DNA from: Candidatus Desantisiibacteriota bacterium
Lineage (GTDB): Bacteria; JACRDZ01
DNA length: 17,533 nt
Direction of reading: 5' to 3'
NCBI GenBank assembly: GCA_016209155.1
Contig: JACQWU010000200.1
Coordinates: forward strand, 1 to 17,533
The translations under genes and the position numbers were made by a program. Below, piece by piece: positions 1 through 17,010 of the stretch. Position 1 is the stretch's first letter. Each line of letters starts with the position of its first letter. Under the pieces are notes generated by a model. It made no database searches and had not been told where the DNA came from. It saw only the letters and a program-made list of their open reading frames with translations.

Positions 1-1479
1 CATTCTATCCATAATGGGATAGACAGTAAAATGTGGAACAGGCAGATAAATATAAACGCTAAAATGGATGTGATTACCAAACTTTGCTCAAGCTGCCATT
101 TAAAAAATAGAGTTGGAGAAAAAAAATTAGTGGGTGAGCTTACACATCCGACTGATAAAACAATCATGGCTGTGGATAGAATACCGGGTATGGATTTATT
201 GCCGACTTTCAATTTTGATGGTGAAAAGATTAATAAAGGGAAGGTTTATTGCAATACCTGTCATGATCTGCATCGCTGGGATCCTTCAAAAAAGGAAGAA
301 GGTCCCGGTAGAAATGTTGAAGGTGACGGCTCAAACAGTTTCTTAAGAGTAAACAATACAAAATCAGAGTTATGTCAGGAATGTCATGCTAAAAAGAAAT
401 TTGCAGCAGGAACCAAGCATGATATGAAAGTTGCAGCTCCAAAATCTACAAATGCTATGGGGCAGGATGTGGAAAGAAGCGGAATATGCGGAGCATGCCA
501 TGTGCCTCATAATGCATCTGATTATAGATTATGGGCACGAGTTCCATATGTAGGGGAAGATATCGGTACGGTTCTATGTTTAAGTTGTCATAGCAAAAAT
601 AATGTCGGAGAAAAGAAACTGGTTGGCCAGTTTTCCCATCCTGTAAATGTGGTAGTAAATGAAAATCCAAAAGTAGACGGCAAAACAAAATTACCTCTTT
701 ATACAGATAAAGGAATAGTAATGCCTTCTACCGGAAAAATAATTTGCATGACATGTCATGATGTTCATAAATGGGATCCTGTATCAGATGATTTTGGAGA
801 TGGAACATTGATTGAAGGAAATGGTTCAAATAGTTTCCTTAGAAAAGTAAATGATAATAAAGGAGAATTATGCACTGATTGTCATGACAGCAAAAAATTT
901 GTTATTGGAACAGACCATGATATGTCCGTAACAGGGATAAATGAAAAAAATTATTTAGGGCAGCCCGTGTCATTGTCAGGGGCGTGCGGCGCATGTCATT
1001 CTGTTCATAATGCATATATTCAGCTTAAATTATGGGGACGTATTCCCGGAAAAAATCCTGATGACCGGCAAATGGATTTAATGGCTACTTTTTGCTATAG
1101 TTGTCATCAATCAAAAAGTATAGGTGAAGCAAAAGTACCGGAAACCCTTTTCCATCCTCCAAAAATTCTTGTAAGTACTGTTGGCCGCGGTTCAAAAGGT
1201 AAAGGCAGCTATTGGCCGGTATATAATGAAGCAGGAGATATTGTCGGGACTGGAATGATTACATGTCCGACCTGTCACAATGTACATAAGTGGCAGCCGG
1301 ATTCAGATAAGCAGGGAATAAATAAAAATATTGAAGGTGATGCAATTAATAGTTTCCTGCGTAATAAAGGTGCATCGTTCAGTTTATGTACTGATTGCCA
1401 TGAAACAGATGCAATTATGAGATACAAGTACTACCATATAGAAAGAAATAGGAAAGAACATCGCGGAACTGTGCATTAG
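1..1479 (+). CDS. Multiheme c-type cytochrome, tandem four-heme modules (5' partial)
   Basis: Probable exported electron-transfer protein. The reading frame is open from base 1, and its first codons read HSIHNG, which continues a CGACH motif cut by the window edge. The ATG at 31 has no ribosome binding site, so the gene starts upstream. Eleven full CXXCH heme motifs follow, with first Cys at bases 85, 250, 373, 487, 577, 745, 871, 985, 1093, 1264 and 1387. Their order repeats as C(S/L/Y)SCH, C(N/M/P)TCH, C(Q/T)(E/D)CH, CGACH with a period of 164-173 residues. Each module also carries an HP (possible distal ligand), a CxTCHxxH(R/K)W block and an NSFLR block. The CGACHxPHN...LCLSCH pairing fits the doubled-CXXCH family. 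The last module lacks its fourth heme and the protein ends 25 residues after the final motif. Role in extracellular or periplasmic electron transfer is inferred; no redox partner is shown. Confidence 0.93.
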   Translation, partial: HSIHNGIDSKMWNRQININAKMDVITKLCSSCHLKNRVGEKKLVGELTHPTDKTIMAVDRIPGMDLLPTFNFDGEKINKGKVYCNTCHDLHRWDPSKKEEGPGRNVEGDGSNSFLRVNNTKSELCQECHAKKKFAAGTKHDMKVAAPKSTNAMGQDVERSGICGACHVPHNASDYRLWARVPYVGEDIGTVLCLSCHSKNNVGEKKLVGQFSHPVNVVVNENPKVDGKTKLPLYTDKGIVMPSTGKIICMTCHDVHKWDPVSDDFGDGTLIEGNGSNSFLRKVNDNKGELCTDCHDSKKFVIGTDHDMSVTGINEKNYLGQPVSLSGACGACHSVHNAYIQLKLWGRIPGKNPDDRQMDLMATFCYSCHQSKSIGEAKVPETLFHPPKILVSTVGRGSKGKGSYWPVYNEAGDIVGTGMITCPTCHNVHKWQPDSDKQGINKNIEGDAINSFLRNKGASFSLCTDCHETDAIMRYKYYHIERNRKEHRGTVH

Positions 1480-1551: not shown

Positions 1552-2517
1552 ATGTTATATAGAAAAAAAATTATGGTATATACTGCATTTTTATTCCTGT
1601 TTATTATTATCTTTTCTTCATTTGCAGAATGTGCTGAAACAATTGAAGGTGAAGTTTTATGGATGGAAGAGAATTTTGTATTTATAAATCTGGGGGCAAA
1701 ACATAAAGTGCATAAGAATATGGTTCTGGATGTTTATGATAATAAAAATAAAATTATAGGAGTTGTTGAGGTTGCGACAGTTATTGAGGAATCATTGTCA
1801 ATGGCAAGAGCCTATATGCAGATGATAAAAATAAAAAAAGGTTATATAGTAAGACCTCAGAGCGAGCGCAGCAAAAAGAAAGCGGTGGATATTCCCCTGT
1901 CAGAAATAGCTATAAAAGTTAAAAAGGCGGATCTTATTAAAACTTTTTCCTCTTTTATAAATGAAGTCGGTACAGAAAAAGAAGAAATTAAAATAGAGGA
2001 TTATCAGCAAAAAATGATGGAAGAATTATTCTTGCGTGCAATTGATACTTTAAAAATAAAAATTCCAAATATGCAAAAGGATGAAAATAAACCCCTGTTT
2101 TTAAATTTATTTAAATCTAAAGAATTTATTAATATTACATCAAAGGAATTAATTTTTAATGGACAGACTTATAATATTTTTTATCATGCAGAAGTAAATA
2201 TTTCACAGTTAATTGAAAAATTGAAGGAGAATGGATATGTTTTGAGAGCTAAACGAATAATCATAGACATCCCGGGTTTAAATCAATTTGAAACCAGAGA
2301 CATAGTTAAAGAAATATCAAAACAATCACTATTTTTGGGGGAGGAAATTATAGATAATCAAAGTCCTATTCCTTGTGTTGTATATACCACTCCTAAATTA
2401 TTCGCTGATGAGATAACAAAAATAGATTACGGGAAATATATTCTCACAATAAAGCAAATCAGAGAAGATACTATTTATATATCACCTGAGAAAGTTGATA
2501 AACCGGTAAAAGGTTAA
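1552..2517 (+). CDS. Exported protein with FlgT-C-like N-terminal domain, unknown function
   Basis: I place the start at 1552 rather than the in-frame ATG at 1519 because AAAAAGGAG (1534-1542) lies 9 bases before it. The product is 321 residues. It opens with MLYRKK, a hydrophobic stretch and a likely signal-peptidase site after ECA, so it is predicted to be exported. The next 80 or so residues (IEGEVLWMEENFVFINLG, then a hydrophobic Val-rich strand pattern) resemble the small beta-barrel domain at the C-terminus of FlgT and related envelope proteins. The remaining 210 residues alternate charged helices and strands and I do not recognise them. It lies 72 bases after the cytochrome and 11 bases before the next gene, so it is probably co-transcribed and may be an envelope partner of both. 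No heme motif is present. Confidence 0.75.
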   Translation: MLYRKKIMVYTAFLFLFIIIFSSFAECAETIEGEVLWMEENFVFINLGAKHKVHKNMVLDVYDNKNKIIGVVEVATVIEESLSMARAYMQMIKIKKGYIVRPQSERSKKKAVDIPLSEIAIKVKKADLIKTFSSFINEVGTEKEEIKIEDYQQKMMEELFLRAIDTLKIKIPNMQKDENKPLFLNLFKSKEFINITSKELIFNGQTYNIFYHAEVNISQLIEKLKENGYVLRAKRIIIDIPGLNQFETRDIVKEISKQSLFLGEEIIDNQSPIPCVVYTTPKLFADEITKIDYGKYILTIKQIREDTIYISPEKVDKPVKG

Positions 2518-2528
2518 AAAGGTAATAA

Positions 2529-5500
2529 ATGTTTAATAATTATAAAAAAGAATTACTAATAATATTATATATTTTTATTTTAAATACAGCCATAGGTGCA
2601 ACAATTTTGAAATTAGAGGATTGGCATGATAGTAATCTCGGGCAAAAAAATAATGTATTGGTAAATACTTTAGGAGAGATGGGACTTGGAATTACAAATA
2701 TACCTGAAGCAGTAAATATACGTGCATCATGCGGAGGTTGTCATGTTGAAGAGGCAAAAATTCCTGAAAAAGAATCGATACGCAAACAACGTACTATTTT
2801 AGTTCCTGCGGATAAAACTCTGGCAACAAATATTCTGGTGAGGAAAAATGGCGGAAAATTAGAATTTATTACAAGTGAATATGCTAAGGATTTCAGTAAT
2901 GGCCCTTATCAGGCATCTTTTGTGAATGATGGAATTACTGATTCCCGCCGTAACTCTGAATTTGGTAATCAACCAAGTTTTTGGGGATGTGATATGCTTA
3001 CCAAATGGAAAGAACCCTTTCCGCAGGAATTTGATGCAGAAGTGAAAAATTTTTCCTTATATATAAACTCTGACCCGATTACATCAAAAGATATATATAA
3101 TGTAACGGATGACGGCGGTGGATGGAGCTATAATAACAATAAGTTCAGCTATCTTTCACCTAATAATGTTTTAGGAGACGGGCTTTTTCCATCCTATCAG
3201 AATCCTGTTAAATTTAATGTCGAAACATGGATACAATCAAAAAATTTAGAATATACTATTAATACAAACAATCCAAAATGGGTAAGAATAGATTTTAAAA
3301 AACCAACTACAATAGCAAGTATTTTCATGACTTCAGATGATAGTGCTAATGTGCATAATATGGAAACAGATATTTTTAAATTGCAAATTATTGTTGTCAC
3401 TCCAAAAGGGCAAAAAAAAGTCTATGACAATAGCCGTAATCAAATGGTGGAGGATGAATTCGCAAAAGGATATGCGGCTTACTTTGATCCGATAGAAGCT
3501 ACCGGAGTAATTTTTAAATTTTATACTGAAAAATATATTGAATGGCAGCGTATTCTTATATTCAGGAAACCATGGAAAAAAGTTTTATCTGCGCGGGCAA
3601 CACAAAAATTTAAAGATTATTCCCCTGAAGTATTTTATTTTACCCCTACAGAGGTTCAATATCTGAAGATATCAATAGAAAGTAATTATGGTAATCCAAA
3701 GTGGGTAGATGTGGGCGAGATGGAAGTATATAATTCATACCCCAAAAATTTAGCCTTATATGAAAACGGCGGAAGAATTTTAGATTGCAGCAGAGTAGAT
3801 GATTATGTTTATGGCCCAAATCGCTTATTAGACGGAAAGCTGCTCGGAGATGATGAATATTCTATTCAAAAGAAAAACTATGTTGCTGCAGATGAATATC
3901 AGATTGTGCGGGGAAGAAAAGAAAATGAGAATGATGTAAAGATTATTCTGGATTTGGGGAAAGAAACGGTTTTCGGGCAGATTAATCATTTCAATACAGG
4001 TGATAGCGGAGCTAAAAGCGTTGTAATAGAATATAGTCTGGATAATAAAAAGTGGGAAGAACTCGGCACCTGCGAACGGCTTGATTTTGCTGAACGTGAT
4101 TTGCCTAATAAAGATACGTTTGTTTTTTCTCCAACCCGGGCAAAATATATAAAGTTTAATTATAAACCAACCAGCTGGATAAAAAATAAATTAAAAATAT
4201 CAGAATATGAAGTTTTTGAAGTCAGCCCGCAATATAAGAAAGAGGGTGTTTTTTTTACAAAATTATATGATTTAAAATTAGCTTCAATCTTTAGCAAATT
4301 AGTTGTTAATGCCGATGAAAAGGGGAAAATTCCTTTAAATACAGAAATTAAAGTAATGCTGACAACTGATAAAGAAGAATTATTTTCTATGGATAGGCAT
4401 GTATCTACTTATGTGGTTAAACCAAATGAACCTTCTGTTTTTCCTATTTCAGAAATTCATAACGGGGACAGATTTGTTCAATTTAAAATTCTATTAAATT
4501 CTGAAGATTTTTCCGCCACTCCATTTTTAAATAATATTTCAATTGAATACAGAAGCCTTAATGATGTATTGGCGGAAGCTAAAAGCTATGAAGATAATAA
4601 GAAATTTCCCGAAGCAAGAGAAATATATGATAGAATTAAATCAAGTAAATTTAGTCCTGAATGGATTTTAAAAGCCGAGCAGGGATTAGTTCGTATAAGT
4701 GATACAATTAATGCAGATGCTCTTAAGCTTTTTGAAGATGGAAATAAATTATTTAACAATGAACAATTTGATGATGCAATAGAAATTTACCGTGAAGTTT
4801 TGCGAAAATATTCTGAAACAGGAATGAATGAGAAGGCAAAAGAAAAAATAAATGAAGCTTCTATAGGCAAGGAATTTAATATGGCGAAATCTCTTGCGGA
4901 TAAAAGAAAATACTGGAAAGCCATAGAACAGTATAAGGCTATTATTGATAATTATCCAAGTACAGTTTGGGCAAAAAAATCACAGATTGAGCTGGATAAT
5001 TATTTTGAAATGGAAGCAAATGATATCTATGATAATGCAAATCGTCTTTTGAAAAACAAACAGTTTGATGAAGCAAAAGTGCTTTTTGAACAAATTAAAG
5101 AAAAATATTCCGCATCTAAATGGCAGAAAAATGCTGAAGAAGGCATAAAAGAATGTATAAAGGGGAAATCCGAACTTATTTTTATGGAAGCACAGAAATT
5201 ATATGACATGAAAAATTTCGAAGAAGCATTAGGAATATATAGACGGATTATTAAAGAATATCCTGAAACTGAAGCTTATAAAAAAGCAAGAGAAGAAATA
5301 ATTAATACTCAAGATAAAATTATGGAAAATAAATTTAATATAGCGCTTAAGCTAAAAGAAAATAAAAAGTATAATGAAGCTGTGTCAGCATTTGAATATA
5401 TAGTTAAAGAGGGTGTAATCCCCAAATGGGTAGAAAAATCAAAAGCTGAAATAAAAAATTGCGAAAAAATTGTGCATGATATTCTGGTTCAGGAAGCAAA

Positions 5501-5942
5501 AAATTTATATGATCAGGGATTGGCACTGCTTAAAAAGGAACAAGAAGATAAAGCATATGATATTTTTGAAAAAATTATTAAAGATTATAAAAATACAGGG
5601 TGGGATAATGAATCGCAAAAAATATTAGATACTATCAGGTCAAAGAGAATCTATGAAGAAATAGAAAAGGAAATTAAGGAAAGAAATTACTATGAAGTAC
5701 TTGTTAAATTAGATGAATTAAAGAAAATAGAACTGGCAAAAGAATTAGTAGATAAAACAACCAGCACATTAAACAAGGATGTGGAAAAAATTTATGAGGC
5801 AGGTAAACGTTATGCGCGCGATAAGGAATATAAAAAAGCCTATCTGGTATATTATTATATAAAAGTAAATTTTACCAATACAGAATGGACAGACCGCATA
5901 GCTGATCGTTTAAAATTAGTCGAAGAAAAATTAAAAGAATGA
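2529..5942 (+). CDS. Exported mono-heme, discoidin-like and TPR-repeat protein
   Basis: A 1137-residue exported protein. Residues 1-23 form a signal peptide (MFNNYKKELL then a hydrophobic core ending near AIGA). A single c-type heme site, CGGCH, sits at residues 68-72. Two discoidin-like (F5/8 type C) regions follow: one around 98-350 (FVNDGITDSR, then WVRIDFKKPTTIASIFM) and a clearer one at about 405-570 (NLALYENGG, LLDGK, VKIILDLGK, FVFSPTRAKYIKF). A further beta region spans about 575-675. Residues 680-1137 are TPR-like helical hairpins of the type A-x-x-L-(x8)-A-x-x-x-Y-x-x-I-(x3)-YP, roughly nine to ten copies. Discoidin folds usually bind carbohydrate or surface ligands and TPRs bind proteins, so a surface scaffold that docks a heme group is plausible. 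The gene starts 11 bases after its neighbour with only a weak AAGG site, suggesting translational coupling. The heme-discoidin-TPR order is not a family I can name. Confidence 0.88.
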   Translation: MFNNYKKELLIILYIFILNTAIGATILKLEDWHDSNLGQKNNVLVNTLGEMGLGITNIPEAVNIRASCGGCHVEEAKIPEKESIRKQRTILVPADKTLATNILVRKNGGKLEFITSEYAKDFSNGPYQASFVNDGITDSRRNSEFGNQPSFWGCDMLTKWKEPFPQEFDAEVKNFSLYINSDPITSKDIYNVTDDGGGWSYNNNKFSYLSPNNVLGDGLFPSYQNPVKFNVETWIQSKNLEYTINTNNPKWVRIDFKKPTTIASIFMTSDDSANVHNMETDIFKLQIIVVTPKGQKKVYDNSRNQMVEDEFAKGYAAYFDPIEATGVIFKFYTEKYIEWQRILIFRKPWKKVLSARATQKFKDYSPEVFYFTPTEVQYLKISIESNYGNPKWVDVGEMEVYNSYPKNLALYENGGRILDCSRVDDYVYGPNRLLDGKLLGDDEYSIQKKNYVAADEYQIVRGRKENENDVKIILDLGKETVFGQINHFNTGDSGAKSVVIEYSLDNKKWEELGTCERLDFAERDLPNKDTFVFSPTRAKYIKFNYKPTSWIKNKLKISEYEVFEVSPQYKKEGVFFTKLYDLKLASIFSKLVVNADEKGKIPLNTEIKVMLTTDKEELFSMDRHVSTYVVKPNEPSVFPISEIHNGDRFVQFKILLNSEDFSATPFLNNISIEYRSLNDVLAEAKSYEDNKKFPEAREIYDRIKSSKFSPEWILKAEQGLVRISDTINADALKLFEDGNKLFNNEQFDDAIEIYREVLRKYSETGMNEKAKEKINEASIGKEFNMAKSLADKRKYWKAIEQYKAIIDNYPSTVWAKKSQIELDNYFEMEANDIYDNANRLLKNKQFDEAKVLFEQIKEKYSASKWQKNAEEGIKECIKGKSELIFMEAQKLYDMKNFEEALGIYRRIIKEYPETEAYKKAREEIINTQDKIMENKFNIALKLKENKKYNEAVSAFEYIVKEGVIPKWVEKSKAEIKNCEKIVHDILVQEAKNLYDQGLALLKKEQEDKAYDIFEKIIKDYKNTGWDNESQKILDTIRSKRIYEEIEKEIKERNYYEVLVKLDELKKIELAKELVDKTTSTLNKDVEKIYEAGKRYARDKEYKKAYLVYYYIKVNFTNTEWTDRIADRLKLVEEKLKE

Positions 5943-6025: not shown

Positions 6026-6232
6026 ATGTCTGAAGGTATTGTAAAATGGTTTAATTCAAGAAAAGGGTATGGATTTATTGAAAATGAAAATGGTCAGGAT
6101 ATTTTTGTTCATTACAGAGCTATTGAAGGTGATGACTTTAAATATTTACTGCCAGGTGAAAAAGTAAAATTTGAGATTGAAAATAGCAACCAGGGTCTTA
6201 AGGCAAAAAATGTGATAAAAGTTATTGCTTAA
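6026..6232 (+). CDS. cspA: Cold-shock domain protein (CspA family)
   Basis: A 68-residue single cold-shock domain that binds single-stranded RNA and DNA and is generally thought to melt RNA structure. RNP1 (KGYGFI, residues 13-18) and RNP2 (DIFVHY, residues 25-30) are intact and the N-terminal VKWFN motif is present. The length is typical of the family. A strong CAGGAGGT (6008-6015) sits 10 bases before the ATG, under a near-consensus promoter. Its TAA (6230-6232) overlaps the stop codon of the convergent gene (6229-6231), so the two share a TTAA and there is no room for a classic terminator between them. Confidence 0.97.
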   Translation: MSEGIVKWFNSRKGYGFIENENGQDIFVHYRAIEGDDFKYLLPGEKVKFEIENSNQGLKAKNVIKVIA

Positions 6233-8517
6233 GAGTTTTTTGCGGATTTTATCAACAGCAAAATTGAACACATACTTATAAATACACTTACAGCAAAAGT
6301 TTTGTATATTCCCATAATGGGGATCAATATTAAATTTGTTATAAAAGTCCCAAGGCAGGCGCCTAAAAGATCTACTCCGTAAATTATACCGGCAGTCTGC
6401 CCTATTTCGCTTTTATTCATATAGGATTTTACTGCAAAAGGAAATTGATAACCACCAAGAAAGCCCGCTCCTATTGTAAAAACAGGGAATAAAATATCTA
6501 TAATAAAATAAGGAAGGACAGTCTGTTTTAACATAATAAATATTAATATCAGTATAATAGGGTATGATAGAATGAAGTATTCTATTTGAATTAATTTTAA
6601 GAAAGCATCTATCTCATACTTTAATGCTTTCCTGGCAAAATATGTTCCGAGTGCAAGCCCAAGCATAAAAGATGTAATAATAATACCCATCTTGTAATAA
6701 ACATAACCATATAAAGATTGAAATACCAAAAGAATTACTATCTCAAATAATATTTCAGAAAAACCATTAGCCATTACAACCGTAAGGACAGCATTATTAT
6801 ATCGTGAAGCAGGATTTGCTGATATTAAATATATTAAAGCAAAGAGCAAAAAAATTAATGCTAAAATCCACCAGAATCTAACAAATAGAATATTTTTAAA
6901 AATATTAGTATATTCAGGATTTAAAAGCGAATTCCACCATACTAAATTATAATAATAACAGGTGGGATTAAAATCGCTATTGATTTTTTTTTCACGAGCT
7001 TGATTAATAATTCGAATAAGATAATTTGTTCGTTCTTTTGACATGTATGCTTTAAGGTAATATCCCCGTATATATTCAGTTTTTATCTCACGTTTTTTTA
7101 ATCGATCCATTAGCATATCAACATCTATTTGTATAATGTTTTTTTCATTTATGCCCAGCATAAAATTTGACCCCAGTCCCGGAATTATTTTAACCTGAGG
7201 AAAAACCTCTTTTAGAGTGCTATTAATCGAGGATAGATATTCCTGCTGTTCATTTGATATATAATTTTCAACAGATCCTATTTTAATAGATAGTATTCCT
7301 CCTTTATTTAAAATGCTTCTTGCTTCAAGGAAAAATTCTATTGTAAAAAAACGGTTTAATTGCGCGGTAAGAGGATTCCCGATATTAATAATAATCATAT
7401 CGAATTTTTCTTTTGCGGTTTTAATATAATGTCTGCCATCCATATTTAAGATTTGTAATTTTTGTGTGTTTTTAATCCGATTGAGTTCTTCGGGAAGATA
7501 TTTTTCGGCCATTTGAATAATAAGAGGATCAATCTCTGCATAAGTAATTTTTTTAATAGAATGCTTCATCATCTCTTTTAAAACTCCTGAAAATCCTCCT
7601 CCAATAAGCAATACTTTTTGAGGATCAGGGTGAGACAGCATGGATATGTGCGCTGTTTCCTCTGCAGGCATAGGATCCGGAACGGTAAATAGATAAATCC
7701 CATTTTCGAAGAAAATTATTTGGTTATTATTTTTCACAACAGAGATGTTCCCATAAATAGAGTTTTTAGATTCAACCAAATCATAATCTTTCCAAAGCAG
7801 GTTAAGCGAAACTTGAGAAAGATTTTTTTTCGAAGGTAATGAAACGATGAAAAAAAGCATTATCCCTGTAAATATGGATATTGCAGTAAGAATTTTTCCG
7901 GAAAAAGAAGAAAAAATTTTCCCCCTGGAAAAATAGAATATCAGGAAAAAGGATGTTATTAAATTTATGCTTCCCAAAATATAGGATATTGTGAATGAGT
8001 TAAGAAATTTTATTAATATGAAATTATATATTGTACCGCCTGCTATTGCTCCCAACGATTCACTTAAATATATCGTACTTATAGTTATACTATTATCTTT
8101 ATGTTCTTTTTTATCGTAAATTCGGGCTGAAAGACTGAACATAAATCCAAGCACAAGGCAAAGCGGAAGAAGTAAAAAAAATGAAGAGGAAATCATCGAA
8201 GTGAGCTTAATAATTTCTGCTTCTGGAACACGGAGTAAAAATTTCAGGACTCTTACAAGGAATATTTCAGCGGGCAATAAAATTATAAGACTTAGCTGGC
8301 ATAAAACAAGATAAATATGCGTGTATCTGCTATTTTGTGTAAGCGCACCCAGTCCCCAACTACCGACAGCAGTCCAGAACATCCAGAAAAAAAGAACAAT
8401 TCCGAGAGAAAGCTCATTCCCGTAAAAAACCATCATGAATTCCCTAAGAAGCAAAACCTGGGATATAAGACTTGTAAATCCTATTAAGAAAAATGATAGG
8501 AATATAGATTTTTTCAC
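6229..8517 (-). CDS. Membrane protein with embedded spermidine-synthase-like domain
   Basis: A 762-residue protein of the fused MFS/SpeE-like type: about seven transmembrane segments at residues 5-225, a cytosolic Rossmann domain at about 245-530, and a second membrane block at about 545-760. The Rossmann domain keeps a SAM-like nucleotide loop (LIGGGFSG, 304-311), an acidic strand end (AEID, 327-330) and MDGRHYI (359-365). Residues expected in true aminopropyltransferases are missing: GGGDGG is GGGFSG here, and the catalytic DxxDP is NIGNP (378-382). It is therefore unlikely to make spermidine; the substrate is unknown. The start is GTG (8515-8517) with AAAGGAT (rc of 8522-8528) ahead of it. 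After frame correction the helicase ends at 8536, 18 bases upstream, so the two are probably co-transcribed. Confidence 0.9.
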   Translation of the reverse strand: MKKSIFLSFFLIGFTSLISQVLLLREFMMVFYGNELSLGIVLFFWMFWTAVGSWGLGALTQNSRYTHIYLVLCQLSLIILLPAEIFLVRVLKFLLRVPEAEIIKLTSMISSSFFLLLPLCLVLGFMFSLSARIYDKKEHKDNSITISTIYLSESLGAIAGGTIYNFILIKFLNSFTISYILGSINLITSFFLIFYFSRGKIFSSFSGKILTAISIFTGIMLFFIVSLPSKKNLSQVSLNLLWKDYDLVESKNSIYGNISVVKNNNQIIFFENGIYLFTVPDPMPAEETAHISMLSHPDPQKVLLIGGGFSGVLKEMMKHSIKKITYAEIDPLIIQMAEKYLPEELNRIKNTQKLQILNMDGRHYIKTAKEKFDMIIINIGNPLTAQLNRFFTIEFFLEARSILNKGGILSIKIGSVENYISNEQQEYLSSINSTLKEVFPQVKIIPGLGSNFMLGINEKNIIQIDVDMLMDRLKKREIKTEYIRGYYLKAYMSKERTNYLIRIINQAREKKINSDFNPTCYYYNLVWWNSLLNPEYTNIFKNILFVRFWWILALIFLLFALIYLISANPASRYNNAVLTVVMANGFSEILFEIVILLVFQSLYGYVYYKMGIIITSFMLGLALGTYFARKALKYEIDAFLKLIQIEYFILSYPIILILIFIMLKQTVLPYFIIDILFPVFTIGAGFLGGYQFPFAVKSYMNKSEIGQTAGIIYGVDLLGACLGTFITNLILIPIMGIYKTFAVSVFISMCSILLLIKSAKNS

Positions 8518-8535: not shown

Positions 8536-10309
8536 TTAAAACAAAGTCATTTGATCATTTTTTTTAATTCTTTTTATTTTTTTTTCTTCTGAACATAATT
8601 TTTTTAATTCTTCGGAAATATCATCTGCAAAGTGGGAAATAGATTTTTTTTTTTTTTTTTTTAAAAGAAATAAATAAATTATATAAACAAGCAGGAATAG
8701 CCCGCGTCATACCCACATAAAACAGCCTTCTTTCCTCTTCCAATTCATTTTCTTCATTTTCTTTAAGATATGGGATTATTCCTTCTTCGCATCCTGCGAT
8801 AAACACAACAGGGAATTCCAAACCTTTTGCTCCATGCAAAGTAATGAGTGTAACTTTTTCTGCCATTTTTTCATAAGTATCCTCTTCTATATCTTCCGCA
8901 TCCTTATAAATATCAATTTTGAATAGAAGATTTACAACCTCATCAACCAAAGAAGAAGAAAGAGAAGGAAATAGATCTTTTGTTATTTCCGTATAGTTTA
9001 GTTTTTTATAAGCTTCAGATATTAAATTTATTTGTCCGGTAAGTTGAAAACCCATGTCTTTTAGCTCAATTTCTGCGGCAAAGTCGTAGGAATTTTGGAT
9101 TATTCTTAGTAAATATTGCGCTCTTTTTTCCTGCAAACTTTTTTTTTCACTTTTTGTCATTACTCTTTGATAAGGGATTCCATGTCTTTGAAATACTTCT
9201 TCAAAAATATTCCCCTCTGCCTGTAAACGATAGAGAATTGCAAAATCAGCAAAACTTTTATTCTCGCATCTTTCATTATTAGACCATCCGCTGTCATGGC
9301 TGAAAAAGCTTGCGCCTCCAATCATCTGCTCAATTCGTTTTGCAATCATTTCCGCTTCCTGTTTTTCGGATGTGAAATTCATAATTTCAATATTTACCCC
9401 TTTATCCAATTCAGTATGAATATTTTTTTTAATCCGCAGGCGGCTTTTTTCTATTACTTCGCAGGATGCTTTAAGAATTGTGCCGCTGGAGCGGTAGTTT
9501 GTTTCGAGGTATGCTTCTCTATATGTAGGAAAATCCTTTTTAAACTGCAAAAAGATCTCAACATTAGCTCCGCGGAAAGCATAAATCGCCTGATCCGGAT
9601 CCCCTATTGCTGTTATATTTTTTTCTCCCAGGGCAAGAGATTTAATCAATTTATATTGCGCGTGGTTTATATCCTGAAATTCATCTATTAAAATATGAGA
9701 AAAACGTTTTTTATATTTTAATAGCATACTACTATCTTCTAATAATTCAACTGCTTTAATAATAATATCATCAAAATCCATGGCATGTGATTTTTTTAAA
9801 TATTCTTCGTAGCAATTATATATTTCCATGAACAACGGATCAGGCTTATTGGTTTCTTCTATTTGATTTTTCATTAAAGATATTTCTTTTTGCAGATTAC
9901 GAATGTTGATGTTTTTTAAACCTTTGTTTTTTACTATTTCCTTTAAGATGATTATAGAATCATTTTCTGTGTAAATACTAAATGATATATTTTTTTTCTG
10001 AAGGAATTCTGTGAGCAATAATTCCAATCCAAAAGCATGTATCGTCCCAATAAATATTCCAGTTTTCAAAAGCTTCTTTTCAAGAATATTTTCCAATCGC
10101 TTTAGCATTTCATGAGCAGCCCTGCGTGTAAAAGTAAGAGCCAAAATACTTTCAGGTAAAACATTTTGATTTTCTATTAAATAAACAATTCTATTCAAGA
10201 GAGTATGCGTTTTCCCTGTGCCGGGACCTGCTATAATTAATAGAGGTGAATCCTGATGCGTTACTGCTATTTGCTGGGCAGGATTTAATTTATCAAGATA
10301 AACCGGCAT
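8536..10309 (-). CDS. UvrD/PcrA-type superfamily 1 helicase, frame broken at a poly-A run
   Basis: ATP-driven 3'-5' DNA helicase family. All motifs are present: I AGPGTGKT (27-34), Ia LTFTRRAAHEM, II LIDEFQD (207-213), III AIGDPDQAIYAFRGA (234-248), IV ETNYRSS (269-275), V LHGAKGLEFP (491-500), VI EERRLFYVGMTRA (525-537). As sequenced, the frame runs into 19 A (minus strand, 8644-8662) and stops at 8621 after a nonsense tail IYFPLCR. With one A fewer, translation continues through SISHFADDISEELKKL and ends at 8536 with QMTLF, which resembles the tail of PcrA/UvrD relatives and a beta-clamp-binding peptide. I annotate the corrected extent, about 590 residues, shorter than the usual 700 or so because the 2B region is small. 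ATG at 10307-10309 is preceded by AGAGGAT. The break may be a sequencing error, slippage or a real mutation. Confidence 0.85.
8644..8662. repeat. Homopolymer run of 19 T (A on the coding strand)
   Basis: Nineteen consecutive T on the plus strand inside the helicase gene, reading as A19 in the mRNA sense. The coding frame is lost across it: an 18-A or 21-A version would join the upstream motif VI region to the downstream conserved tail. Runs this long are prone to miscalling, replication slippage and polymerase slippage. Confidence 0.95.
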
Positions 10310-11602: not shown

Positions 11603-11833
11603 CTAAATTGCTTTTTCGAGTCTTTCAGCCACCCAAACTTTGATAATCGATTGTCGTGGAACACCTAAACGTTTTGATTCTCTGTCTAGTAAATGAATCA
11701 TCCACAAAGGGAAATCTACATTCACCCTTTTATGTTCCCGTTCAGGTCTTCTTGCTTTCGATATGTCAAGGTATTTGGAAATGTCTTTGCCTTCGTCAAA
11801 TTTTTTTTCAATTTCATGTGCTTTCATTTTCAT
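11603..11833 (-). CDS. brnA: BrnA antitoxin
   Basis: A 76-residue antitoxin of the BrnT/BrnA type II system. It shows the family pattern: MKAHEIEKKFDEGKDISKYL, then KARRPEREHKRVNVDFPLWM, then LDRESKRLGVPRQSIIKVW, a ribbon-helix-helix DNA-binding C-terminus. In known systems BrnA neutralises BrnT and, alone or in complex, represses the operon. I start it at the ATG 11831-11833, preceded by AGGAGA (11848-11843) with 9 bases between. The longer in-frame start at 11890 lies deep inside brnT and has no better site. The first codons overlap the end of brnT by 20 bases, typical of translational coupling. Confidence 0.92.
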   Translation of the reverse strand: MKMKAHEIEKKFDEGKDISKYLDISKARRPEREHKRVNVDFPLWMIHLLDRESKRLGVPRQSIIKVWVAERLEKAI

Positions 11834-12083
11834 ATATATCAATCTCCTCTTTTCTTGCTCTTCTGACTGAAATAATTCTTGTTTTTTCATTTCTATAAGT
11901 AATAATGCCTGCCCAATATTTTTCTAATATTTTACCAATAACTAAATATCTTGGTTCATCGGTAGTTTTTAGTGGAATTTCAATTATATTTGAATCATCC
12001 CACAATCTTTGAGCTTCATAAAAATCAATGCCATGTTTTTTCTTATTGTTAATACTTTTTTGAGAGTCGAATTCAAATTCCAT
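11814..12083 (-). CDS. brnT: BrnT toxin (RelE-fold ribonuclease)
   Basis: An 89-residue toxin of the BrnT family, which folds like RelE and inhibits growth by cleaving RNA. Visible family blocks are FDSQKSINNKKKHGIDFYEA, WDD, EPRYLVIGK and the C-terminal RIISVRRARKEE with its basic residues. The start at 12081-12083 (MEFEFD) is the standard N-terminus; the frame extends upstream to 12260, but that part lies in the promoter and reads as noise. brnA follows with a 20-base overlap. It is transcribed divergently from the tetR operon. No truncation or missing key block is seen, so the pair looks functional. Confidence 0.92.
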   Translation of the reverse strand: MEFEFDSQKSINNKKKHGIDFYEAQRLWDDSNIIEIPLKTTDEPRYLVIGKILEKYWAGIITYRNEKTRIISVRRARKEEIDIYENEST

Positions 12084-13587: not shown

Positions 13588-16500
13588 ATGCAAAAAATAG
13601 CTAAAAAAACAGGATCTTTGCTTTGGAGGGATAAAGGTTTTTTATCTTTAGTAATCACACAATTTTTAGGTGCTCTAAATGATAATGGTTTTAAAATATT
13701 GCTTACTCTGCTTGTTGCTGAAATAATAACAAAACCCGGAGTTGCAAGTCAATATGTATCGATAGCGAGCGCTGTTTTTGTTTTACCTTTTATTTTGTTT
13801 TCAAATTTTGCGGGATATGTGTCAGATAGGTTTAGTAAATATAATGTTGCCGTATTTGCAAAAATACTTGAAATATTTGTAATGGCGCTTGGTTTAATCG
13901 GGCTATATTATAAAAATGTGGTTTTTTTAATGATAGTTCTTTTTCTTATGGGCTTGCAGAGTACAATATTTGGTCCCGCGAAATTAGGTATACTGCCGGA
14001 GATGCTTGATAATAAGGATCTATCCAATGCAAATGGGATTATGGATTTATATACATTTACAGCTATTATCGCGGGAACTATATTGGGAGGAGTTTTGTTA
14101 AATATTACAAAACCTGATTTTTATTTAGCAGGCTGGGTATTTGTTTTAATTGCAGTCCTAGGGACCTTAAGCAGTTTTTTTATTACAAAAGTCCCGTCTG
14201 TTAATAGCGCTGAAAAGCTTGACTGGAATCCTATAAGGAGTTTTTACTCCAATATGAAAGAAATAAAAAATAACAGGGCCTTATTTCTTAGTATTTTGGG
14301 TATTGCATATTTCTGGTTCATTGCCGCTATGTTCCAGATGGATTTATTATTATATGGTAAAATTTTAATGAATGCTGATAGCATTAATATAAGTAAAATA
14401 CTTGCGGTTTTGGGAATCGGGATAGGTATAGGGTCCGGTATTGCCGGAAAAATATCCGGAGAAAAGACAGAGTTGGGACTCGTGCCGCTTGGATCTCTGG
14501 GTATGGGATTATTTTCAATAGATCTTGTAACGGCATCAAATTCATTTACAAGAGTAACAATTGATCTTTTTTGTTTAGGATGCTTTGCCGGTTTTTTTGT
14601 TGTACCGCTAAATACACTGCTTCAGGAAAAAAGTCCCAAAGATAGTAAAGGAAGAATGATTGCCACTTCAAATATTTTAAGTTTTATCGGAGTATTTTTT
14701 GCATCATTTCTTATCTGGTTATTTACCGGTAAATTAGGGTTTGATCCGGCTAAGACTATCGGGATTATGTCTTTAGGAGTATTTGCGGTGACAATGTATA
14801 CATTATGGATATTACCTGAGCCATTCATAAGGCTTGTTTTATGGTTTTTGACTCATACTATATATCATATTAAATCCTTTGGAAAAGAGAATGTACCGAA
14901 TGAGGGTCCGGCGCTTTTAGTTGTAAATCATCTGTCATATATTGATCCGCTGCTTGTTGGAGCAACACTATCAAGAAGTGTGCGTTTTTTTATGTGGCGG
15001 CCGATTTATGAACTTAAGCAATTTAATTGGTTTTTCAGGTTGATGCATATGATACCTATTTCAGCTTCTGACAAACCTAAACAATTTATTGCCAGCATGG
15101 AAGAAGCCCGTAAGGCTTTAAAAGAAGGACATATTGTTTGTATTTTTGCGGAAGGCGCTATATCACGCGTGGCTCAAACCCTGGGCTTTCATCGTGGAAT
15201 GGAGGTTGTTGCAAAAGATATGGACATACCTATAATTCCTGTAAATTTGGACAGGGTATGGGGTAGTATTTTTAGCTTTCATCAGGGAAAATTTATATGG
15301 AAAATACCAGGAAAAATCCCTTACCCTGTAACTGTATCATTTGGCAAACCATTACCTGCAATCTCAAAAGTATACGAGGTACGTCAGGCAGTTCTTGAGC
15401 TTGGAAGCGAAGCTTTTAATCACCGGTTTAAAAAATTATTGCCTTTGCACAGCAGGTTACTCCGTCAGGCAAAAGAACAATGGTTTGCCAAAGGAATGGC
15501 AGATTCATCTGGACTGGAATTAACATATGGAAAAATTATAACTGCTTCAGTATTACTTTCCAGAAAATTTACGAAATATTTTCCAGAGGAGGAACGAATC
15601 GGAGTCCTATTCCCGTCATGCGTTCATGGTGCGCTGGTTAATATCGCACTCAATATGTCAGGCAAAATTCCGGTAAATCTTAATTTTACTATGAGCCAGA
15701 ATTTATTAGAAAAAGTGCTGGTAAAAGCAGGGATAAAAAAAATAATTACATCCCGTAAAGTAATTGAAGGTTTAAAGTGGGAGCATGATAAAAGGATGGT
15801 TTATCTTGAAGATATGGGTAAATCGTCAAAAATTTCTTCATTCCTTTTTTGGATTTCACTTTTTGTAATTCCTTCCGGATTAATCGAAAGAGTTTTCATA
15901 GCAAAATCGAGGGTAAAAAATAATGATATTGCAACATTAATATTTACAAGCGGAAGCACCGGTATCCCAAAAGGAGTTGTGCTGACGCATAATAATATTC
16001 ATTCCAATGTGCAGGGACTGCTGGAGGTATTTCAAACAGATTCAAATGACAGCTTGATGGGGGTATTACCGTTTTTCCATTCGTTCGGTTATACAGCCAC
16101 AATATGGCTTCCGCTTTTAGGAGGTTTTTCTGTTGTGTATCATAGAAGTCCGCTGGAACCGGTTATCATTCAAAAAATGATTAAACAGCATAAATGCACA
16201 ATGGTACTCACTACACCTACATTTCTTCAGATGTGGATGAAAAAGTTTCAGAAGGAAGACGTGAGCACACTGCGTTTTGTAATTGCAGGTGCTGAAAAAT
16301 TGCGCAGTCAAATTGCCGGAGAATATCTGGAGAAATTCGGAGTTCCTGTTCTTGAAGGATACGGCTGTACAGAGCTTTCTCCTGTAGCCTGTGTCAGTGT
16401 ATTTAATGTTAAAGATAAGCATGAATATCAACTGGGTCATAAAGAAGGAAAAGTCGGACGTCCTCTTCCCGGAGTTTCTGTAAGTATAGTTGATCCTGAA

Positions 16501-17010
16501 ACAGGGAAAGCTCTTCCCACAAATCACCCGGGACTTTTACTCGTAAAAGGACCTAATGTTATGAAGGGATATTGGGAAGATAAGGAAAAAACGGATGAAG
16601 TTATAAAAGATAACTGGTATATAACAGGAGACATAGCTTCAATAGATGAAGATGGTTTTATCCAGATAACCGACAGGCTTTCCAGATTCAGTAAAATTGG
16701 CGGTGAAATGGTTTCCCATATTATGGTGGAAGAAAAAATTTATGAAGCAGCACTTGATATTGATGCAAAATTTTTAATTGTATCGGTTCATGATGACAAA
16801 AAGGGAGAAGCGCTGGTTGTTCTCTATCATAATTATAGCGGTGATATTGAAGCATTATACGAAAAATTAGGACAATCAGATATCCCGAATTTGTGGATCC
16901 CAAATAAAAAATCATTTTTCAAAATAGATGAATGGCCGACACTCGGAACAGGAAAAGTTGATATGGCTAAAGCAAAAGAAATAGCAAAAAGTTTGGCAGG
17001 TACTGTCTAA
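13588..17010 (+). CDS. LplT-like MFS / PlsC acyltransferase / Aas-like acyl-ACP ligase fusion
   Basis: An 1140-residue three-part protein. Residues 1-420 are a twelve-segment MFS domain like the lysophospholipid flippase LplT (N-terminal QFLGALNDNGFK). Residues 430-620 are a PlsC-type glycerophospholipid acyltransferase: NHLSYID (HX4D, His448/Asp453) and FAEGAISR (520-527). Residues 640-1140 are an adenylate-forming ligase: TSGSTGIPKG (787-796), GYGCTE (924-929), TGD (1013-1015), a DR hinge (1029-1030) and Lys1123 in TGKVDMAK. In known systems LplT brings lysophosphatidylethanolamine inward and Aas activates a fatty acid on ACP and re-acylates it. This fusion puts the steps in one chain at the inner membrane. 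Start ATG is one base after the hydrolase stop, with AAGGAG ahead. All catalytic motifs are intact. Confidence 0.93.
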   Translation: MQKIAKKTGSLLWRDKGFLSLVITQFLGALNDNGFKILLTLLVAEIITKPGVASQYVSIASAVFVLPFILFSNFAGYVSDRFSKYNVAVFAKILEIFVMALGLIGLYYKNVVFLMIVLFLMGLQSTIFGPAKLGILPEMLDNKDLSNANGIMDLYTFTAIIAGTILGGVLLNITKPDFYLAGWVFVLIAVLGTLSSFFITKVPSVNSAEKLDWNPIRSFYSNMKEIKNNRALFLSILGIAYFWFIAAMFQMDLLLYGKILMNADSINISKILAVLGIGIGIGSGIAGKISGEKTELGLVPLGSLGMGLFSIDLVTASNSFTRVTIDLFCLGCFAGFFVVPLNTLLQEKSPKDSKGRMIATSNILSFIGVFFASFLIWLFTGKLGFDPAKTIGIMSLGVFAVTMYTLWILPEPFIRLVLWFLTHTIYHIKSFGKENVPNEGPALLVVNHLSYIDPLLVGATLSRSVRFFMWRPIYELKQFNWFFRLMHMIPISASDKPKQFIASMEEARKALKEGHIVCIFAEGAISRVAQTLGFHRGMEVVAKDMDIPIIPVNLDRVWGSIFSFHQGKFIWKIPGKIPYPVTVSFGKPLPAISKVYEVRQAVLELGSEAFNHRFKKLLPLHSRLLRQAKEQWFAKGMADSSGLELTYGKIITASVLLSRKFTKYFPEEERIGVLFPSCVHGALVNIALNMSGKIPVNLNFTMSQNLLEKVLVKAGIKKIITSRKVIEGLKWEHDKRMVYLEDMGKSSKISSFLFWISLFVIPSGLIERVFIAKSRVKNNDIATLIFTSGSTGIPKGVVLTHNNIHSNVQGLLEVFQTDSNDSLMGVLPFFHSFGYTATIWLPLLGGFSVVYHRSPLEPVIIQKMIKQHKCTMVLTTPTFLQMWMKKFQKEDVSTLRFVIAGAEKLRSQIAGEYLEKFGVPVLEGYGCTELSPVACVSVFNVKDKHEYQLGHKEGKVGRPLPGVSVSIVDPETGKALPTNHPGLLLVKGPNVMKGYWEDKEKTDEVIKDNWYITGDIASIDEDGFIQITDRLSRFSKIGGEMVSHIMVEEKIYEAALDIDAKFLIVSVHDDKKGEALVVLYHNYSGDIEALYEKLGQSDIPNLWIPNKKSFFKIDEWPTLGTGKVDMAKAKEIAKSLAGTV

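Follow-up and report, generated by a model that had tools for sequence, protein, structure and literature searches.

We identified an exported protein of 1137 aa (ORF3), encoded in a genome of a small candidate phylum, which we interpret with moderate confidence as an envelope glycan-binding TPR scaffold with a lineage-specific link to an electron-transfer operon and a probable c-type heme. The window, that is, the whole stretch of DNA analyzed (17,533 nucleotides), opens with the truncated gene of a giant multiheme cytochrome (ORF1), followed on the same strand by an exported partner gene (ORF2) and by ORF3. In our collection, the phylum is represented by four genomes, each a separate species: G000, which contains the window, G001, G002, and G003. 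The features to which the analysis refers are the following, with the basis of each in brackets:

1..1479, plus strand: ORF1, the C-terminal ~490 aa (a third) of a giant multiheme cytochrome truncated at the contig start (homology)
1552..2517, plus strand: ORF2, exported partner gene (26–30% identity to the genes directly preceding the ORF3 homologs in G001 and G003)
2529..5942, plus strand: ORF3, 1137 aa, 11 bp after ORF2 (ORF translation, Pfam, homolog alignment)
2529..2600, plus strand: probable signal peptide of ORF3, aa 1–24 (by eye; helix H4–25 in the AF2 model)
2715..2825, plus strand: 37-residue insert of ORF3, aa 63–99, missing in both homologs (alignment columns 80–116)
2730..2744, plus strand: CGGCH, putative c-type heme attachment motif of ORF3, aa 68–72 (motif counts and shuffles)
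2823..3143, plus strand: region D1 of ORF3, aa 99–205, possible degenerate first discoidin half (alignment; without a Pfam match)
3141..3740, plus strand: region D2 of ORF3, aa 205–404, F5/8C-like, best stretch aa 245–329 (Pfam)
3924..4169, plus strand: core of region D3 of ORF3, aa 466–547, F5_F8_type_C, CBM32-like (Pfam; profile search against PDB)
4224..4553, plus strand: beta-rich linker domain of ORF3, aa 566–675 (profile comparison)
4554..5939, plus strand: TPR tail of ORF3, aa 676–1137, nine ~51-residue units (Pfam, repeat count, AF2, structural alignment)

The architecture that the initial annotation had read from the DNA, combining a heme motif, discoidin-like regions, a TPR tail, and an export signal, proved to be real at the level of sequence and profile comparison. 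The N-terminus of ORF3, MFNNYKKELLIILYIFILNTAIGA, is hydrophobic and, judged by eye, resembles a signal peptide, in agreement with the export proposed there. The TPR tail was likewise borne out, both by a Pfam match to TPR_6 (53.8 bits against a cut-off of 26.3, E = 1.7e-14) and by the nine repeat units. In the AF2 model, which was built from a three-row alignment, the tail forms helical hairpins, with pLDDT values mostly of 71–88 over aa ~730–1040 and of 47–74 after ~1040; the N-terminal half is mostly under 50, too poor for any fold, and thus the structural comparison covers the TPR tail only. The tail is closest to BamD (Z ~12), which denotes a type of fold rather than a family, because helical repeats can reach values near 12 without kinship. 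Membership in two families was considered and rejected, as ORF3 scored below the cut-offs of both the BamD/YfiO model TIGR03302 (68.5 bits, E = 6e-19, cut-off 81.4 bits) and the YbgF-like model TIGR02795.

The likeness of the tail to BamD/YfiO and YbgF, in profile (below cut-off) as well as in fold, together with the many giant cytochromes encoded in this phylum, could also indicate that ORF2 and ORF3 form an accessory for the outer-membrane assembly or secretion of surface proteins of very large size, the giant cytochrome among them, and that the heme motif is a sensor or a by-product. We consider this improbable, given that BamD-like TPRs are found in periplasmic proteins of many functions, that neither family model reaches its cut-off, and that a Z score of this size does not require kinship. 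Furthermore, BamD/YfiO and YbgF/CpoB share the TPR profile and fold with the ORF3 tail but have neither a discoidin nor a heme part.

The proposed discoidin fold was recovered by profile search: ORF3 as a whole matches F5_F8_type_C (PF00754) in Pfam with 43.4 bits (E = 4.4e-11; curated cut-off 28.2 bits) in two stretches, the best of which is aa 466–547. Taken alone, aa 400–572 score 36.1 bits (E = 8.1e-9), above the cut-off, and isolated D2 scores 27.3 bits (E = 4.3e-6), just under it, with a weak Sad1_UNC-like match at aa 368–401. The D2 regions of the two homologs score 21.1 and 20.4 bits and the homologs 41.2 and 49.9 bits against the same profile. ORF3 is predicted to carry at least two F5/8C (discoidin/CBM32-like) regions. 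D1 may be a degenerate discoidin, because it has no Pfam match when isolated (aa 99–206) and lacks ~25 residues that are present in both relatives. Comparison of D2 with D3 in hhalign gave an E value of 0.0027 at a probability of only 11%, and that of D1 with D3 gave nothing. In a profile search against PDB, D3 matched CBM32 modules (2w1q, 7d29, 3hnm, and 2jd9; E = 0.004–0.02, the best being 0.0043); the CBM32 matches are weak overall (E = 0.004–0.05), and the same search with D1, D2, or the linker domain returned nothing usable. These CBM32-like matches favor a glycan over a mineral as the ligand of ORF3. The linker region (aa 566–690, isolated) has no match in Pfam, and its beta-rich domain bears a weak resemblance to modules of unrelated exported proteins from two other genomes (G139, G368).

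Among the genomes searched, ORF3 is, by sequence similarity, restricted to this one small candidate phylum. Homologs are encoded in G001 (contig C34, 923 aa) and G003 (contig C14, 915 aa; presumably GenBank JAQUKH010000014), and G002 has neither an ORF3 nor an ORF2 homolog. Outside the phylum, no homolog was detected in ~380 further genomes, a profile of aa 98–697 run over 386 genomes giving only short matches to the linker; a pattern scan of GTDB genome contigs retrieved only JAQUKH01 (presumably identical to G003), and the same scan of viral contigs retrieved no homolog. ORF3 is 36% identical to its homologs overall and ~40% identical in the discoidin part, and all three proteins show discoidin regions, beta domain, and TPR tail in the same order and are preceded by an ORF2 homolog. 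In contrast to ORF3, both relatives have a complete D1, about half of the TPR tail (that of ORF3 is ~200 residues longer), and no cytochrome gene beside them, and they lack CXXCH together with the whole 37-residue insert. This finding does away with the notion of ORF3 as a conserved heme protein: a conserved heme–discoidin–TPR family is ruled out, because CGGCH and the insert are missing in both homologs, which does not by itself make the copy in the window heme-free. A lack of CGGCH conservation among homologs is one of the observations that the initial annotation had named as speaking against its proposal. For the same reason, a heme in ORF3 would be at most a lineage-specific addition.

CGGCH is the only CXXCH motif in ORF3, a protein with 7 Cys and 7 His, for which the expectation from composition is 2.6e-4; 6 of 20,000 shuffled ORF3 sequences contained such a motif. 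Across the phylum loci analyzed (129 ORFs of ≥150 aa), one ORF other than ORF3 has exactly one CXXCH. The motif is located in a protein predicted to be exported, in an organism with heme-c maturation genes. Because cytochrome-c assembly genes are present in G000 and ORFs with a single CXXCH are so rare, CGGCH probably receives a c-type heme. The isolated insert matched no cytochrome family in Pfam, no recognizable sixth heme ligand could be named, and searches for the insert elsewhere in the phylum returned only chance matches at CXXCH motifs of multiheme proteins.

The competing explanation is that ORF3 is a heme-free scaffold like its relatives, with CGGCH either serving as a metal site or disulfide or matching the motif by chance within a neutral, lineage-specific insertion, and its adjacency to the cytochrome a mere rearrangement. 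Both homologs indeed retain the domains and the partner gene while having neither the motif nor the cytochrome beside them, CGGCH is known from a single sequence, and an ATPase-like, apparently cytoplasmic ORF of the same phylum contains CSLCH (L008, 14279–18475). Nevertheless, we regard a heme-free ORF3 as possible but on balance unlikely, given the rarity of CXXCH among the shuffled sequences, the export of ORF3 to where CXXCH normally acquires heme in a very cytochrome-rich organism equipped for cytochrome-c assembly, and the coincidence of the motif with the position behind the cytochrome operon in the sole genome that has either.

The suggestion that ORF3 shares an operon with a multiheme protein gains weight from its neighborhood, as the ORF2–ORF3 pair stands directly behind a multiheme cytochrome gene that closes a conserved electron-transfer cassette. 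ORF1 is 41–44% identical to residues ~909–1386 of the 34-heme proteins of G003 and G001, and its orthologs contain 33–34 CXXCH over 1387–1476 aa. The cytochrome stop is separated from the ORF2 start codon by 72 bp, with both genes on the same strand and no terminator-like site called between ORF1 and ORF2, and we infer that ORF1, ORF2, and ORF3 are co-transcribed. The start of ORF2 is probably the ATG at 1552, located behind AGGAG (1538–1542), the listed start at 1519 probably being upstream of the real one. ORF2 and ORF3 are a constant gene pair, because in both relatives the ORF2 homolog lies immediately before the ORF3 homolog, with a slight overlap; the two genes are thus adjacent in three of three genomes, with a spacing of 11 bp in the window.

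As for ORF2 itself, its C-terminal domain is similar to the C-terminal portion of AhpC/TSA-type redoxin proteins from other phyla (G110, G150, G246, and G373; E = 4e-13 to 2e-8), and stand-alone paralogs are encoded in G001 and G003. The AF2 model of ORF2 has a mean pLDDT of 53, too low to interpret.

The cassette itself is found on another contig of the same genome (C336; L062), which encodes on one strand a 15-heme protein, a 6-heme protein with a hydrophobic C-terminal helix, cytochrome b561 (PF01292), a 3-heme protein, an NHL propeller, and the N-terminal portion of the giant cytochrome. That C336 connects to the window is deduced from orthology, C336 covering the cytochrome up to residue 774 and the window residues 910–1386, with ~135 residues unseen. 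The same six genes occur in the same order in G001 (C117, L068) and G003 (C21, L067), where unrelated genes of the opposite strand come after the 34-heme gene; in G002, an NHL-like gene and a giant cytochrome are followed by an opposite-strand gene. The cassette looks like a quinol-oxidizing extracellular electron transfer system, its gene content, with a cytochrome b, multihemes both membrane-anchored and periplasmic, and a giant cytochrome, pointing to quinol oxidation that would feed an extracellular or outer-membrane conduit. ORF2 and ORF3 lie behind the cassette only in G000, whereas in G001 and G003 they are located elsewhere, away from cytochromes. Thus, the core function of ORF3 need not involve electron transfer. 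Because G002 has neither gene, the joining of ORF2–ORF3 to the cassette in G000 and its separation in G001 and G003 cost the same.

The six-gene cassette is conserved across two families of the phylum. In addition, G001 contains a series of multiheme genes of very large size (C83; L069, L070). One giant ORF among them, of which >4400 residues are visible in a frame of 5559 aa, combines no fewer than 24 CXXCH with stretches resembling fibronectin and with an F5/8C-like domain that, at 25.7 bits, falls short of the cut-off.

In the reading that we prefer, the discoidin/CBM32-like modules of ORF3 would bind an envelope or extracellular glycan, the BamD-like TPR tail would dock protein partners, ORF2 being the constant genetic partner of ORF3, and the 37-residue insert would hold one c-type heme. 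Most likely, ORF3 would hold the giant cytochrome, or the cells together with the cytochrome, in a glycan layer, and its single heme would exchange electrons with the 34-heme cytochrome or report contact with it. A more speculative and rather unlikely extension of this scaffold model is that a heme-free glycan-binding TPR scaffold gained its heme through the short CXXCH insertion on entering the giant-cytochrome operon, and so became a redox-active anchor that connects the 34-heme conduit to the extracellular glycan matrix. Outside Geobacter and Shewanella, little is known of how giant extracellular cytochromes are anchored in the cell envelope or matrix. Should ORF3 indeed bind heme, it would represent a structural scaffold turned redox-active by one small motif beside a cytochrome operon, and its heme-free relatives would allow a direct comparison; otherwise, it would be an ordinary lineage-specific surface scaffold.

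The initial annotation could assign this architecture to no named family, which holds for the triple combination of heme, discoidin, and TPR but not for a single heme with F5/8C, a pairing already described in Verrucomicrobia. According to a Fig. 8 legend, planctomycete-type cytochromes of these bacteria combine a c-type heme domain with F5_F8_type_C in one protein, and the PVC-type or planctomycete-specific cytochromes PSCyt1–3 with F5_F8_type_C or CBM given there resemble ORF3 in having c-type heme and discoidin or CBM in a single chain (PMC5615132). Unlike ORF3, these proteins carry PSCyt/PSD domains, and ORF3 has in addition a TPR tail; neither the PSCyt/PSD nor the TIGR02604 profiles matched ORF3 in Pfam or NCBIfam at E values up to 1, nor did aa 23–100 alone in Pfam. 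In a sample of 30 strong F5/8C loci, CXXCH was present in the same frame in two. What is new in ORF3 is the triple combination and the link to the operon.

The carbohydrate-binding protein Cbp2D of Cellvibrio japonicus, in which CBM2 and single-CXXCH domains are joined, offers a further precedent, as its c-type domain shows redox activity and, in isolated form, reduces LPMOs (PMC8981238). By analogy, the discoidin part of ORF3 could hold the heme at a polysaccharide, with electrons passing to or from a polysaccharide-oxidizing enzyme; both exported chains unite, in principle, a carbohydrate-binding-type module with a single CXXCH. We consider this highly improbable for ORF3, beside which no carbohydrate-active enzyme gene was seen, the upstream neighbors being cytochromes, and which has no recognizable cytochrome-c domain around CGGCH and a TPR tail without a counterpart in Cbp2D. 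Conversely, Cbp2D contains CBM2, FN3, YceI-like X158, and X183/X132 and lacks the discoidin, the TPR, and the multiheme operon of ORF3.

For the cassette upstream of ORF2 and ORF3, an analogy is offered by Geobacter, where the inner-membrane cytochromes CbcL and CbcBA mediate quinol oxidation feeding extracellular multihemes (PMC12307469). The likeness to these Cbc-type systems is one of gene content alone, consisting of cytochrome b (PF01292), membrane-anchored multihemes, and giant cytochromes. No counterpart of ORF3 is known in Geobacter. Among the papers searched, none names discoidin together with multiheme cytochromes.

Downstream of ORF3, the window encodes several further proteins. On the minus strand, 6229–8517 encodes a protein of 762 aa in which a membrane part is fused to a spermidine-synthase-like part (MFS_SpdSyn subfamily, 75 bits against a cut-off of 40), and 8621–10309 encodes a 562-aa UvrD/PcrA-like helicase that stops shortly behind motif VI (YVGMTRA), in the region of a poly-lysine stretch, and is probably truncated or frameshifted relative to full-length PcrA (725-aa model). 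A type II toxin–antitoxin pair is located at 11603–12083 (minus strand), comprising a BrnT toxin (PF04365, 9e-24) and a CopG-type antitoxin whose gene overlaps that of the toxin (5.4e-06, slightly below the cut-off). Finally, 13588–17010 (plus strand) encodes an MFS transporter, an acyltransferase, and an acyl-ACP synthetase in a single chain (NF006386, 1297.8 bits, above the cut-off), the product being an enzyme of lysophospholipid import and re-acylation.
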